Source of the DNA: an uncultured Pelagibacteraceae bacterium
GTDB lineage: Bacteria; Pseudomonadota; Alphaproteobacteria; Pelagibacterales; Pelagibacteraceae
Direction: 5' to 3'
NCBI GenBank assembly: GCA_950068185.1
Contig: CATMHL010000002.1
Coordinates: 1-38,565, forward strand
DNA: 38,565 nt
The position numbers were made by a program, and so were the translations under genes. The notes below the pieces were generated by a model that did no database searches, was not told the DNA's origin, and saw only the letters and a program-made list of their open reading frames with translations. Below are positions 7,982-38,565 of this stretch, piece after piece; the stretch's first letter is position 1, and each line of letters starts with the position of its first letter.

Positions 7982-8599
7982 ATGAATATTGAAGTCAAAA
8001 TTAACGTAAAACCAATTGATTACATTAAATCTATGAATATCCTTGAACAACGAGTCCATGATGTTTCTTTGGGCAAAAAAGATGAATTTTTATGGATACT
8101 GGAACACAACCATGTGTATACAGCAGGTACTAGTTCAAAAAATACAGATTTATTGGATAAAAATCTTAGAGTAATTAAAACAGATAGAGGCGGAAAACTC
8201 ACCTATCATGGGCCAGGTCAAAAGGTTGTTTATTTTGTTCTAGATTTAAATAAAAGAGAAAAAGATATAAGAAAATTAGTCAATAAAATTGAAAATTGCA
8301 TTATAGATGTTCTTCGTGAATATAAAGTAACATCATATCCAGATAAAAAAAACATAGGGATATGGGTAGGCGACAAAAATAATTCAATGAAAATTGCCGC
8401 TATAGGTATTAGGGTAAAAAAATGGATTGCATATCATGGGTTTGCTTTGAACATATGCAACGATTTATCTAAATATAATGGGATAGTACCCTGTGGTATT
8501 AAAGATAAAGGCATTACAAACTTTAAAAAACTAGGAATCAATAAATACAATAATATTGATAAAATTATTGCTAAAAAATTTTTAAATATTTTTCTTTAA
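7982..8599 (+). CDS. lipB: Lipoyl(octanoyl) transferase
   Basis: 205 aa; LEHNHVYTAGTSSKNTDLL, DRGGKLTYHGPGQKVVYFVLDL, KIAAIGIRVKKWIAYHGFALNI, IVPCGIKDKGITN. Confidence 0.95.
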   Translation: MNIEVKINVKPIDYIKSMNILEQRVHDVSLGKKDEFLWILEHNHVYTAGTSSKNTDLLDKNLRVIKTDRGGKLTYHGPGQKVVYFVLDLNKREKDIRKLVNKIENCIIDVLREYKVTSYPDKKNIGIWVGDKNNSMKIAAIGIRVKKWIAYHGFALNICNDLSKYNGIVPCGIKDKGITNFKKLGINKYNNIDKIIAKKFLNIFL

Positions 8600-9482
8600 G
8601 AATGTTTTTAAAAGTTAAAGGCGGTTCTGCAGAAAAATTATATTTGGTGCCATTAATTGAAAAATTAATTTTATAGGCATGCAGCATTAAGGTATTTTTT
8701 TTGCTTGGGTAATTTTCCGAAATTCTGTATTTAGTATCTCCTAAAATTGGATTTCCATGGATTAATAATTGTTTCCTTAATTGATGCTTTTTTCCAGTTT
8801 CAGGATTCAGCTTCAATAAGGAATAATTATTATTATTATCTAAAACAGTATAATGAGTAATAGCTGATGTTTTAATTTTTTTTTTATTTTCATAATAAAG
8901 TAAATCATCTTTTAAAGTGCCCTTATTTTTTTCTGGTAGACCTAACACAACTCCCAAATAAGTTTTATGAATTTTTCTTATACGAAACAATGAAGTAAAT
9001 AATTGGGCATACTTTCTGTTTTTAGCAACAATAAAAACACCTGTAGTTTCTTTATCAATTCTATGAACCGCATATGGTAATGATCCTTCAAATTCTTTTG
9101 TACTTCGCAATATATCTAAAATATTTCTTCTTGATTTTGTTCCCGATTGAACTGCAATGCCAGCAGGCTTATTTATTACAACAAAGTTTTCATTATTCTC
9201 AATAAACATACTGGATGATTGTGATAGCTCTTTCTTTGTAGCTATATATTTTTCATTTATTTTTTTATGCTTATTTGCTATAAAGTTTACATTATAAATA
9301 ATAATTTGATCTTTTTCTTTAAGTTTATAGGAACATTTCTCATTTTTATAATTTATCTTTATATTTCCTTTTCTAATATTTTTTTCTATTAATGATTGAG
9401 GTACATCACATACATTTTTTTTAAACCACCTATCTAACCTGGAATTTATATAATCATATTTAACTAAAAAAATTTTTTTCAT
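8571..9482 (-). CDS. rluC: RluA-family 23S rRNA pseudouridine synthase (RluC/RluD-like)
   Basis: 303 aa; N-terminal S4-like domain, VINKPAGIAVQSG, HRIDKETTGVFIVAKN, HQLRKQLLIHGNPILGDTKY. RluC versus RluD not resolved. Confidence 0.85.
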   Translation of the reverse strand: MKKIFLVKYDYINSRLDRWFKKNVCDVPQSLIEKNIRKGNIKINYKNEKCSYKLKEKDQIIIYNVNFIANKHKKINEKYIATKKELSQSSSMFIENNENFVVINKPAGIAVQSGTKSRRNILDILRSTKEFEGSLPYAVHRIDKETTGVFIVAKNRKYAQLFTSLFRIRKIHKTYLGVVLGLPEKNKGTLKDDLLYYENKKKIKTSAITHYTVLDNNNNYSLLKLNPETGKKHQLRKQLLIHGNPILGDTKYRISENYPSKKNTLMLHAYKINFSINGTKYNFSAEPPLTFKNILKEKYLKIF

Positions 9483-9498
9483 AAAAAAACAATTTAAT

Positions 9499-9516
9499 GT
9501 TACTCTTTAAAGCAAC
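9499..9516 (-). terminator. Possible hairpin downstream of rplQ
   Basis: Minus-strand GTTGCTTTAAAGAGTAAC folds imperfectly (with G-U pairs); a T7 run lies ~9 nt further downstream, so it is not a canonical terminator. Confidence 0.3.
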
Positions 9517-9539
9517 ATATAATAACTTACATAATATAT

Positions 9540-10004
9540 TTATTTTTTAGATTTTGTCTTCTTGTCTGAATCTTTCGGTTTGGACGCGAGTGAAGATTTT
9601 TCAGATTCTTGTGGCTTTTTCTTTATATCAACTTTCTTTGCATTAGGATCTCGATCAACTAATTCAATAACTGCCATAGGGGCGTCATCACCGTATCTAA
9701 AGCCAGATCTAATAACTCTGCTATAACCACCTTTTCTTTTTCCATATCTTTGAGATAAAATTTTTGACAATTTATCTACTGAAAGTTTTGATTGCAATTC
9801 GTCAAATAAACTTTTTTTTGATTGTAAACTATTTTTTTTACCTAACGTAATTACCTTATCTATTTTAGCTTTTAATTCTTTAGCTTTAGGTAACGTTGTG
9901 GTAATTTGTTCGTATTTAATAAGAGAATTCAGCATATTCTTAAACAAAGCTTTTCGATGCTCTGAAGTTCTGTTTAACTTTCTGTATCCTAGTATATGTC
10001 TCAT
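9540..10004 (-). CDS. rplQ: 50S ribosomal protein L17
   Basis: MRHILGYRKLNRTSEHRKALFKNMLNSLIKYEQITTTLPKAKELK; low-complexity C-terminal extension. Confidence 0.97.
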   Translation of the reverse strand: MRHILGYRKLNRTSEHRKALFKNMLNSLIKYEQITTTLPKAKELKAKIDKVITLGKKNSLQSKKSLFDELQSKLSVDKLSKILSQRYGKRKGGYSRVIRSGFRYGDDAPMAVIELVDRDPNAKKVDIKKKPQESEKSSLASKPKDSDKKTKSKK

Positions 10005-36925: not shown

Positions 36926-37001
36926 TGGCAGGAGCGGAGGGAATCGAACCCCCAACCTCCGGTTTTGGAGACCGGCGCTCTACCAATTGAGCTACACTCC
37001 C
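36926..37001 (-). tRNA. trnW: tRNA-Trp (CCA anticodon), CCA tail encoded
   Basis: Minus strand GGGAGTGTAGCTCAATTGGTAGAGCGCCGGTCTCCAAAACCGGAGGTTGGGGGTTCGATTCCCTCCGCTCCTGCCA; cloverleaf foldable, anticodon loop CTCCAAA, 76 nt. Confidence 0.96.
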
Positions 37002-37078
37002 ATTTAACCGGATGGTTCCAAATTGGTTCCCATCATGATTGAAAACAAAAAAGCTTCCACAACTGCCTATAAGCTATG

Positions 37079-37108
37079 CTTATATAAAGGATAATATAAT
37101 AATTTCAA
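37079..37108 (-). promoter_or_regulatory. Predicted promoter of tRNA-Trp-secE-nusG-rpl-rpoBC
   Basis: Minus strand -35 TTGAAA (37103-37108), 18-nt spacer, -10 TATAAG (37079-37084); the -10 lies within inverted repeat TATAAGCATAGCTTATA (37068-37084). Confidence 0.5.
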
Positions 37109-37168
37109 CTTATAATAAAGAGTGAAAACTGTAGGTTTTAGAGTCTGTTTTAAAGGTAAGTATTTATT

Positions 37169-37246
37169 TTAGGTAGGATATTTTGAACGTCTATTGAACT
37201 CTCTTTGTTTGAGTTCGGCAAGAAAATCATCAGCAAGTTTTGTCAT
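37169..37246 (-). CDS. Possible 25-aa micro-ORF, or -1 frameshift extension of the upstream poly-Lys ORF
   Basis: Minus strand ATG..TAA: MTKLADDFLAELKQREFNRRSKYPT. No evident Shine-Dalgarno; the frame is open back into the poly-Lys tract of the upstream ORF. Confidence 0.3.
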   Translation of the reverse strand: MTKLADDFLAELKQREFNRRSKYPT

Positions 37247-37260
37247 ACGAGGAGCTGAAG

Positions 37261-37398
37261 CTAGCCTCGTTTCTTTTTTTTCTTTTTCTTTTTAGTTTTC
37301 TTTTTCTTCATACTTTTCTTTTTAGCCATAGTTTTCTCCTTTAGTCTTTTGTACTCTTCCTCACTAATATCGTTAACACCGAACTCCGCTTCATCCAT
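37261..37398 (-). CDS. Bipartite acidic/poly-Lys micro-protein, copy 1 (45 aa; alternative in-frame start at 37329 gives 22 aa)
   Basis: Read by eye: MDEAEFGVNDISEEEYKRLKEKTMAKKKSMKKKKTKKKKKKKKRG. Internal ATG preceded by AAAGGAGAAAACT; homologous to the ORF at 38132-38272. Confidence 0.6.
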   Translation of the reverse strand: MDEAEFGVNDISEEEYKRLKEKTMAKKKSMKKKKTKKKKKKKKRG

Positions 37399-37408
37399 TT
37401 TTTATTTC

Positions 37409-37501
37409 TTATCCATATACTAATAATAGCCAGATACAACATACTATAAGTATCATAACTATTGAACCGCTTATACACCAACGCCAAAAAAGTTTATACA
37501 T
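37409..37501 (-). CDS. Possible 30-aa single-TM micro-protein
   Basis: Minus strand ATG..TAA: MYKLFWRWCISGSIVMILIVCCIWLLLVYG; stop lies 10 nt before the copy 1 start. Confidence 0.4.
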   Translation of the reverse strand: MYKLFWRWCISGSIVMILIVCCIWLLLVYG

Positions 37502-37534
37502 AAGTATAGAATATATAAAAATGAAAATAAATAA

Positions 37535-37756
37535 ATGAAAAATGTATCAAGTGGGAAAACTAGAGGAAGCCGTCCTCATCATCGAAGAAAAAAGAAAAAG
37601 AAAAGTTACGTAAAATTTCTAAAGCGTAAAAGAATGAAAAGAAATACGAAAGGTATATTGAAGATTTTAAAAGAAAAAAAAACGGCATCAGAGCAATCAC
37701 AGGACAAATTAGAACCTATTGCTAGTCCTATGTCAGACTGGAACTGGAAAAAATGA
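37535..37756 (+). CDS. Small Lys/Arg-rich protein of unknown function
   Basis: 73 aa, RPHHRRKKKKKSYVKFLKRKRMKRNTKG... with acidic/polar C-terminus ending DWNWKK; followed directly by a terminator-like hairpin. Confidence 0.5.
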   Translation: MKNVSSGKTRGSRPHHRRKKKKKSYVKFLKRKRMKRNTKGILKILKEKKTASEQSQDKLEPIASPMSDWNWKK

Positions 37757-37758
37757 AT

Positions 37759-37791
37759 GTGAAGCGTGCCAATAGCTGGTCACTTTTTTTT
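37759..37791 (+). terminator. Predicted intrinsic terminator of the 73-aa ORF
   Basis: GTGA-AGC / GCT-(GG bulge)-TCAC stem (37759-37783) followed by T8; begins 2 nt after the TGA stop at 37754-37756. Confidence 0.6.
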
Positions 37792-38061
37792 ATATTTTTG
37801 AATAATATTATCTATCTCTTGTTCAGATAGACGTATTGGAACAAAAGGTATTCTTTTCAAGACAGACCTTGCTTTTTTTATATTGCCATCTAATAAATAA
37901 AAAGAAATTTTCTCACATGCTTGGTTAAACATTTTTTCATCCTTACTTCTTTTTTCATATCCTGGATGTTTTTCACTTAATATTTTTTTAATTTCCTTTG
38001 TTGTATCGTTCTTGGAATCTAAGATTACAAGCCTAGAATAACGTCTTTTCTTCTTTTTCAT
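37780..38061 (-). CDS. Small Lys-rich protein of unknown function
   Basis: 93 aa MKKKKRRYSRLVILDSKNDTTKEIKKILSEKHPGYEKRSKDEKMFNQACEKISFYLLDGNIKKARSVLKRIPFVPIRLSEQEIDNIIQKYKKK; non-low-complexity core supports a real gene. Confidence 0.65.
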   Translation of the reverse strand: MKKKKRRYSRLVILDSKNDTTKEIKKILSEKHPGYEKRSKDEKMFNQACEKISFYLLDGNIKKARSVLKRIPFVPIRLSEQEIDNIIQKYKKK

Positions 38062-38131
38062 TCAACTTATAATAACATGATTTTTGGTGTGAGGTGTAGG
38101 TCGGAAAAGTTTACAGGATTCCACATTTTAA

Positions 38132-38272
38132 TTATTCTTCTCTTCTCTTTTTTCGACTTTTTTTCTTCTTGTTTTGTTTTTTCTTTTTCTTTTTTTTAGC
38201 CATTATTACCTCCTTTTTTAATTGATTATAATCATCTTCATTGCGAATAACAGGAAATTCAGATTCATCCAT
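38132..38272 (-). CDS. Bipartite acidic/poly-Lys micro-protein, copy 2 (46 aa; alternative in-frame start at 38203 gives 23 aa)
   Basis: MDESEFPVIRNEDDYNQLKKEVIMAKKKKKKKQNKKKKSRKKRREE. Internal ATG preceded by AAAAAAGGAGGTAATA. The track's 38350 start (MNLLETL...) overlaps another ORF and is less likely. Confidence 0.6.
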   Translation of the reverse strand: MDESEFPVIRNEDDYNQLKKEVIMAKKKKKKKQNKKKKSRKKRREE

Positions 38273-38285
38273 TTCAATAGAGTCT

Positions 38286-38441
38286 TTATTTTTTCCGATT
38301 TTTTGGATCTTTCCACCATTCGTATATTGTAGTGTTTCTAATAAATTCATAAATTGATCTGTGATTTTTTATTATTGTATAAATTAATAAAATGACAAGC
38401 AGCCATCCAGATAATCCAAAGAATAAATCTTGACCACCCAT
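38286..38441 (-). CDS. Possible 51-aa single-TM micro-protein
   Basis: Minus strand ATG..TAA: MGGQDLFFGLSGWLLVILLIYTIIKNHRSIYEFIRNTTIYEWWKDPKNRKK; start overlaps the upstream stop (TAATG). Confidence 0.5.
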   Translation of the reverse strand: MGGQDLFFGLSGWLLVILLIYTIIKNHRSIYEFIRNTTIYEWWKDPKNRKK

Positions 38442-38565
38442 TAATAGCTAAGCCACAAGAGGTAGATCATTCCTGCAATTAATAAATAAGTTAATATCCT
38501 TACAATCTGTTCTCGATTTTCCGTTTTGGTTGACCAACTATTGTCATTTTTGGTTGATGATTTCT
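38441..38565 (-). CDS. Small membrane protein, C-terminal part (5' end outside window)
   Basis: Minus strand open from the window edge: KSSTKNDNSWSTKTENREQIVRILTYLLIAGMIYLLWLSY*; hydrophobic C-terminal segment. Confidence 0.45.
   Translation of the reverse strand, partial: KSSTKNDNSWSTKTENREQIVRILTYLLIAGMIYLLWLSY

Follow-up and report, generated by a model that had tools for sequence, protein, structure and literature searches.

The MDEAEF/polylysine genes are a previously unlisted family of marine phage micro-proteins consisting almost purely of lysine. The constant part is a predicted peptide of 20-24 residues, nearly all lysine, with its own strong putative Shine-Dalgarno sequence and ATG. 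In a subset of the phages, and in both copies found in the window (the whole stretch of 38,565 nucleotides analysed here), a predicted acidic block (MDEAEF.. or DESEF..) is added upstream of this peptide in frame. A preliminary description had placed two micro-ORFs at 37261-37398 and 38132-38272 on the reverse strand, and both proved to be exact in coordinates and strand. As a complete explanation, including start usage and function, we regard both copies as phage-derived two-start micro-genes with slightly better than even confidence.

Distribution and types of the polylysine micro-genes

When 398 SAR11 genomes were scanned with the DNA pattern MDExEF-x(10-20)-MAKKK, only the two window copies matched. 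The family is absent by pattern from the 397 other SAR11 genomes of this even sample, a result with which a profile search agrees, and it was not found in the other 22 genomes of the genus. The same pattern matches six IMG/VR contigs, all in frame. Two looser patterns, one restricted to the N-terminus and one to the YxxLK/MAKKK junction, bring the total to 33 uncultured marine viral loci, with the lysine tail in frame in all of them; the 19 loci that were found via the N-terminus alone all have an in-frame methionine, a Shine-Dalgarno sequence and KKK. Exact DNA patterns were the basis of these family scans; a few viral loci beyond the 33 came from a profile search. According to the preliminary description, a lack of homologues in related genomes would have counted against the family. 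Such homologues are indeed lacking in the close bacterial relatives, but the family is real despite this absence because its home is in phages. Its members lie in contigs identified from sequence as uncultured marine viruses, several of them related to Pelagibacter phages, and gene similarity to pelagiphages suggests the probable hosts of these contigs. One of the contigs that carry an MDEAEF gene (L147) also contains a 519-aa ORF (8322-9881(+)) resembling, by eye, a flavin-dependent tryptophan halogenase.

Neither Pfam nor PHROG profiles gave a significant match for the family, it was not found in the records and stretches of named phages that were examined, and no description of such a gene was found in the literature searched. 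No match in named phages was obtained, either when the island that holds the window copies was compared at the DNA level or when the long form was used in tblastn. A peptide of phage HTVC010P (MLSQQTGKKKKKKKYKKKK) was considered as a member and rejected, as it has neither a Shine-Dalgarno sequence nor MAKKK.

Two types can be distinguished. The type A consensus is MDEAEFGVDDISEEEYN[RK]LK.., while that of type B is (M)xDE[AS]EFPVI[RK]NED.YN.LKKE.. (DESEFPVIRNED.YNQ..) or a shorter MIPVIRNEDHYNQLKKE... form. In trees, copy 1 is placed beside type A phage genes (L115) and copy 2 beside type B phage genes. Because each copy has its own phage relatives, the two represent two phage-derived lineages and not, as had been supposed, a gene that was duplicated locally.

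The lysine peptide also occurs without the acidic block. A scan for a Shine-Dalgarno sequence followed by MAKKKKK matched at least 120 viral stretches. Among the matches listed, ORFs of 60 residues or fewer are present at 48 of the 76 new loci read, 31 of the 34 loci with a short ORF of more than 60% K/R have no acidic block ahead of it, and 28 of those 31 have an in-frame stop within 12 codons upstream. The peptide is therefore a free-standing gene in at least about 30 further viral contigs among the matches listed, some of which are near-identical to each other. Orthologous sites with and without the block can be compared directly. For example, L150 and L152 have the same lysine gene as L229, L247 and L267, behind a near-identical upstream gene, and differ from them by an insert of approximately 72 nt. 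The block is similarly present in L111 and L144 and absent from L219, L222 and L245 in a second, unrelated gp28-like context. As the lysine peptide can stand free, and does so at orthologous sites with or without MDEAEF, the unit is the polylysine micro-protein of 20-24 residues. MDEAEF is an optional acidic in-frame extension that is predicted to start, in most cases, at the stop of the upstream gene, and by which the same gene could also yield a longer acidic-plus-basic protein.

Two further arrangements were observed near free-standing genes. In L235 and L258, an acidic SEEQYNKLRL stretch is followed by a different lysine-tailed ORF (MTPYGPGTYGSKKGRPPKKKKK..) and then by a free-standing MAKKK gene, suggesting that the acidic block might be combined with basic modules of more than one kind. 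In L244, L252, L214 and L272, a cysteine-rich ORF of 49-50 aa (CxxCNCNCHC..CPCxNCKCK..CLSCQ) ends directly ahead of the free-standing lysine gene.

Coding sequence and the two starts

For 19 distinct type A N-termini, pairwise counting gave a pS of 0.49, a pN of 0.08 and a dN/dS of 0.11. Because the search patterns had fixed some residues, dN/dS was repeated on residues outside them, and was 0.16 on residues 11-18 of the loci found from the N-terminus only. The N-terminal half, for which a dN/dS analysis had been proposed in the preliminary description, is under purifying selection. In 30 distinct tails, 77% of the residues are lysine and glutamate is almost absent. Codon position 3 of the tails has 194 G, as compared with 47 at position 1 and 45 at position 2. 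Codon order avoids A runs, the longest of which averages 7.0 bases per tail versus 10.9 when the lysine codons are shuffled. These codon features together would not be expected from unselected A-rich DNA; the tail is selected for lysine.

The internal start has a marked signal of its own. The MAKKK methionine (or that of MTKKK or MPKKK) is preceded by a 6-8 nt match to the anti-Shine-Dalgarno sequence in all 32 distinct members (mean 6.9). With synonymous resampling, which drew on the codon use of these phages themselves, the match was 4.0 +/- 0.23 and never exceeded 5.0 in 5000 runs. AAG GAG (once CAG GAG) is fixed at this position even though AAA and GAA are the common codons. The internal Shine-Dalgarno sequence is, on this evidence, enforced through codon choice, and the MAKKK methionine is a predicted independent start codon. 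The first ATG, in comparison, has a Shine-Dalgarno match of only 0-5 nt. In most phages it overlaps or directly adjoins the upstream stop codon, as TAATG or ATGA with gaps of -1, -4 or -8, and several different genes occur at this upstream position. The reading frame is preserved over the 18-29 residues of the acidic block, and in L161 and L162 the upstream gene is fused in frame through the DEAEF block, with the internal start retained. Each gene probably yields two products, one short and one long. On completing the upstream gene, ribosomes might restart at the first ATG and give some long form, while the internal Shine-Dalgarno sequence would drive a larger share of the short polylysine form.

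Two other explanations of these sequences bear on whether they are genes and on which product is made. The copies might be gene-like stretches of A-rich low-complexity DNA, alike by chance or through a shared simple repeat. In favour of this, the tails consist of simple repeats that match many A-rich stretches, and Pfam and PHROG hold no matching family. However, a non-repetitive N-terminus that is conserved across many viral loci, its dN/dS of 0.11-0.16, the codon-position bias and avoided A runs of the tail and the internal Shine-Dalgarno sequence have already refuted this explanation. The earlier proposal of a real translated family, as opposed to A-rich DNA, is borne out by the low N-terminal dN/dS values and by the codon usage of the tails. 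It is also unlikely that only the short lysine peptide is made and that the MDEAEF block, as a leader or an untranslated region, tunes access to the internal Shine-Dalgarno sequence. The short form does stand free in many phages and the first ATG has a match of at most 5 nt, but an untranslated leader would not account for a frame kept throughout the block, for amino acids conserved beyond synonymous change, for fusion of the block to the upstream protein in L161 and L162, or for a first start that overlaps the upstream stop in most phages.

The window copies and the island beside tRNA-Trp

Copy 1, a type A member, has a long form of 45 aa at 37261-37398(-) (MDEAEFGVNDISEEEYKRLKEKT followed by MAKKKSMKKKKTKKKKKKKKRG; ORF product MDEAEFGVNDISEEEYKRLKEKTMAKKKSMKKKKTKKKKKKKKRG), which is supported by the ORF and the 33 viral homologues. 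Its nearest viral loci are L115 and L142 (83-86% nucleotide identity). The predicted short form (MAKKKSMKKKKTKKKKKKKKRG, 22 aa, 37261-37329(-)) starts at an internal ATG with a Shine-Dalgarno sequence, AAAGGAG (37336-37342(-)), a signal conserved in all 32 distinct members as judged by synonymous resampling; the short form has free-standing homologues in other phages. Copy 2, a type B member, has a long form of 46 aa at 38132-38272(-) (MDESEFPVIRNEDDYNQLKKEVI followed by MAKKKKKKKQNKKKKSRKKRREE; product MDESEFPVIRNEDDYNQLKKEVIMAKKKKKKKQNKKKKSRKKRREE), lies within a mechanical ORF extending to 38350 and groups with L129, L131, L136 and the short PVIRNED type. Its predicted short form (MAKKKKKKKQNKKKKSRKKRREE, 23 aa, 38132-38203(-)) likewise begins at an internal ATG, and its Shine-Dalgarno sequence, AAGGAGGT (38208-38215(-)), is conserved as in copy 1. 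The copies can be aligned at the DNA level, with the block ATGGATGAA at the first start and AAGGAG plus ATGGCTAAAAA common to both at the second.

Both copies have an acidic block (DE[AS]EF or PVI[RK]NE..) followed in frame by M[ATP]KKK, with a Shine-Dalgarno sequence 5-9 nt ahead of the internal ATG; as in other dual-start phage genes, a second in-frame AUG has its own ribosome site. MAKKK is 23 residues from the start in both, as had been noted, but this exact distance is not a rule of the family, in which the spacing is 18-29 residues and always in frame. A first ATG that overlaps or abuts the upstream stop, which is typical of the family and not required for membership, is not found in the window copies. 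Their first ATGs are separated from the preceding ORF by +10 nt (copy 1) and +13 nt (copy 2) and have no clear Shine-Dalgarno sequence, making synthesis of the long form less well supported here than in the phages.

The two genes lie in a region that has no synteny with any relative (37001-38565, reaching the contig end). The window corresponds to all of contig C2. The SAR11 genome to which it belongs is incomplete, at 75% in 109 contigs, and NusG places it nearest to uncultured single-cell genomes of Pelagibacteraceae. In the relatives, the ribosomal-protein/nusG/secE/tRNA-Trp segment is followed on its upstream side by tuf and then by tRNA-Gly and tRNA-Tyr; in the nearest relative, tuf ends approximately 7 bases before tRNA-Trp. 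The homology of the window with these relatives ends at base 2 of tRNA-Trp(CCA) (36926-37001(-)), which confirms, as a break in synteny, the island upstream of this tRNA that had been recognized previously. Base 1 of the tRNA, at 37001, is G, where A is present in 79 of 79 relatives read; it makes the first acceptor-stem pair G-U and marks the island edge. The 1.56 kb lying between the tRNA and the end of the contig is without counterpart in the genus. No tuf gene was found in the rest of the assembly, and Rfam matched only the tRNA.

The island contains several other ORFs. A small hydrophobic ORF precedes each copy: MYKLFWRWCISGSIVMILIVCCIWLLLVYG (37409-37501(-)) ends 10 nt before copy 1 and had no homologue in the loci compared, and MGGQDLFFGLSGWLLVILLIYTIIKNHRSIYEF.. 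(38286-38441(-)) ends 13 nt before copy 2 and had weak family matches only. Downstream of copy 2, a 93-aa ORF (MKKKKRRYSRLVILDSKNDTTKEIKK.., 37780-38061(-)) had no close homologue in the viral contigs and no convincing SAR11 relative. An exact 15-base direct repeat, TTCAACTTATAATAA, is found at 37104-37118 and 38061-38075, the latter directly before the start of the 93-aa ORF. A 73-aa ORF (MKNVSSGKTRGSRPHHRRKKKKKSYVKF.., 37535-37756(+)), for which no viral relatives were found, is part of a separate small, apparently mobile element in SAR11 with approximately 90% DNA identity between the window and contig C75. The rest of the island, beyond the two genes and this element, had no match in the loci compared.

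The 73-aa ORF belongs to a small lysine-rich type, MK[NS]VSSGKTRGS.PHHRRKKKKK..SEQSQDELEPI..PMSD, that recurs in different SAR11 gene neighbourhoods (window 37535-37756(+); L126 3059-3355(-); L181 8137-8331(-)). The two upstream genes in L126 and L181 are unrelated but have the same tail (FKLN.NEFNQKEESGVTSRIKKIK) at their 3' ends, and the ORF looks like a mobile mini-element that replaces gene ends. Like members of the polylysine family, it is short and lysine-rich and starts at the end of an upstream gene; it differs from them in sequence, in being host-borne and in recurring at other SAR11 loci. Its tail, SE[KQ].QDELEPI..PM.[DE], also ends phage proteins of L150 (5063-5470(-)) and L152 (2878-3273(-)), which resemble a SET-domain protein of L110. 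A QDELEPI tail common to the SAR11 element and phage proteins suggests that phage and host genes have exchanged tails.

The window copies probably reached the SAR11 genome with phage DNA that became joined to the chromosome at tRNA-Trp. As would be expected for a prophage at a tRNA, a junction at the tRNA gene is present. The tRNA-Trp sequence had no exact match in the viral contigs as a phage attachment site. Two tyrosine-integrase matches are on contigs C61 and C45, unlinked to the island, and the window contig ends at 38565. The match on C61 (L186, 472-1866(-)) is a 464-aa tyrosine-integrase-like protein beside a carbamoyltransferase-like ORF of the same single-cell genome. No terminase large subunit was found in the whole assembly, so a complete prophage is not evident. 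With the integrase matches on other contigs, this is compatible with a prophage remnant, a small insertion or a chimera. The last of these would be an artefact of amplification or assembly that linked phage DNA present in the sorted cell to the host contig at tRNA-Trp, in which case the genes would not be chromosomal; this concerns the island and not the reality of the family. We give it a considerable probability, somewhat short of even. It would account for a homology break exactly at the 5' end of the tRNA, a contig end 1.56 kb beyond the break, an island present in no relative and a tuf gene that is not assembled elsewhere in this genome. However, no tailed-phage genes were found in the 23 smaller contigs sampled of the same single-cell genome, so that, together with the lack of a terminase large subunit, little free phage DNA is evident. 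Furthermore, the island carries a 73-aa element with a homologue elsewhere in the same genome, and integration of a pelagiphage at a tRNA, namely tRNA-Cys, is known (PMC12753301).

Gene context, comparison with known systems and putative function

The lysine gene occurs in several contexts. In some viral contigs it adjoins the gene for the terminase small subunit, in L275 it lies upstream of a portal gene, and in others it follows a gene whose HTVC041P homologue directly precedes DNA maturase A; an exonuclease gene and late small genes provide further contexts in different phages. HTVC023P-type pelagiphages (HTVC027P and HTVC023P) are relatives of these contigs, with a related terminase small subunit, VRR-type nuclease ORF, exonuclease and portal. 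In the cultured relative HTVC027P, the whole unit is absent at the corresponding junction of gp28 and the terminase small subunit gene, and a lysine-rich two-start gene was not found in the stretches of HTVC023P-type pelagiphages examined.

Small basic DNA-binding virion proteins, such as protein J of phiX174, are tiny and very basic phage proteins. Protein J belongs to icosahedral phages with single-stranded DNA, whereas the contigs described here are tailed double-stranded DNA phages; the likeness is one of size and charge, with no sequence similarity claimed. In SPP1 24.1/24.1* and 26/26* and in the lambda S holin, one gene in one frame has an internal AUG with a correctly spaced ribosome site and gives a shorter second protein (PMC6316719), an arrangement that the polylysine family is predicted to share. 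Those dual-start genes are lysis genes, with starts 2-9 residues apart in SPP1, while the polylysine family has starts separated by 18-29 residues, an acidic extension and a polylysine core that is also found alone. Both dual in-frame starts (SPP1, PMC6316719) and small basic phage proteins are thus kinds that are already known.

The polylysine peptide has approximately 15-20 positive charges and no other recognisable feature. Its charge, considered with the terminase, exonuclease, portal and late-gene contexts, favours putative nucleic-acid binding, perhaps to phage DNA before or during packaging. The peptide may act as a nucleic-acid-binding counter-ion, or "peptide polyamine", for phage DNA late in infection or, possibly, for RNA or ribosomes. 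The acidic block might then neutralise or redirect the peptide, with the long form as a modulator. Activity on membranes, either as a lysis aid or as a cationic peptide acting on lipids, is quite unlikely. Although a strong positive charge would suit such a role, and small hydrophobic ORFs or genes precede both window copies and lie nearby in L230-type contigs, the sequence has no hydrophobic or amphipathic face and the other contexts are terminase, exonuclease and portal genes rather than lysis genes. Extending the nucleic-acid-binding reading, we tentatively propose, with confidence well below even, that near-pure polylysine peptides of 20-24 residues are a widespread, unlisted class in marine phages that would act as gene-encoded polyamines on phage DNA or host RNA, and that an exchangeable acidic in-frame extension could switch or temper their activity.

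During pelagiphage infection, some cells reportedly end up with no detectable ribosomes, by a route as yet unexplained (PMC11066056), and nothing in this analysis ties the polylysine peptide to that report. Binding to DNA or ribosomes, if it occurs, would make the peptide a candidate for a role in DNA packaging or host takeover. Few biological entities in the ocean are as abundant as SAR11 and its phages, whose small genes mostly lack a known function and fall below the cut-offs used in annotation. The genes described here add a micro-gene family in which a predicted polylysine peptide occurs alone or with an acidic in-frame partner, with two putative initiation signals of which the internal one is visibly selected.
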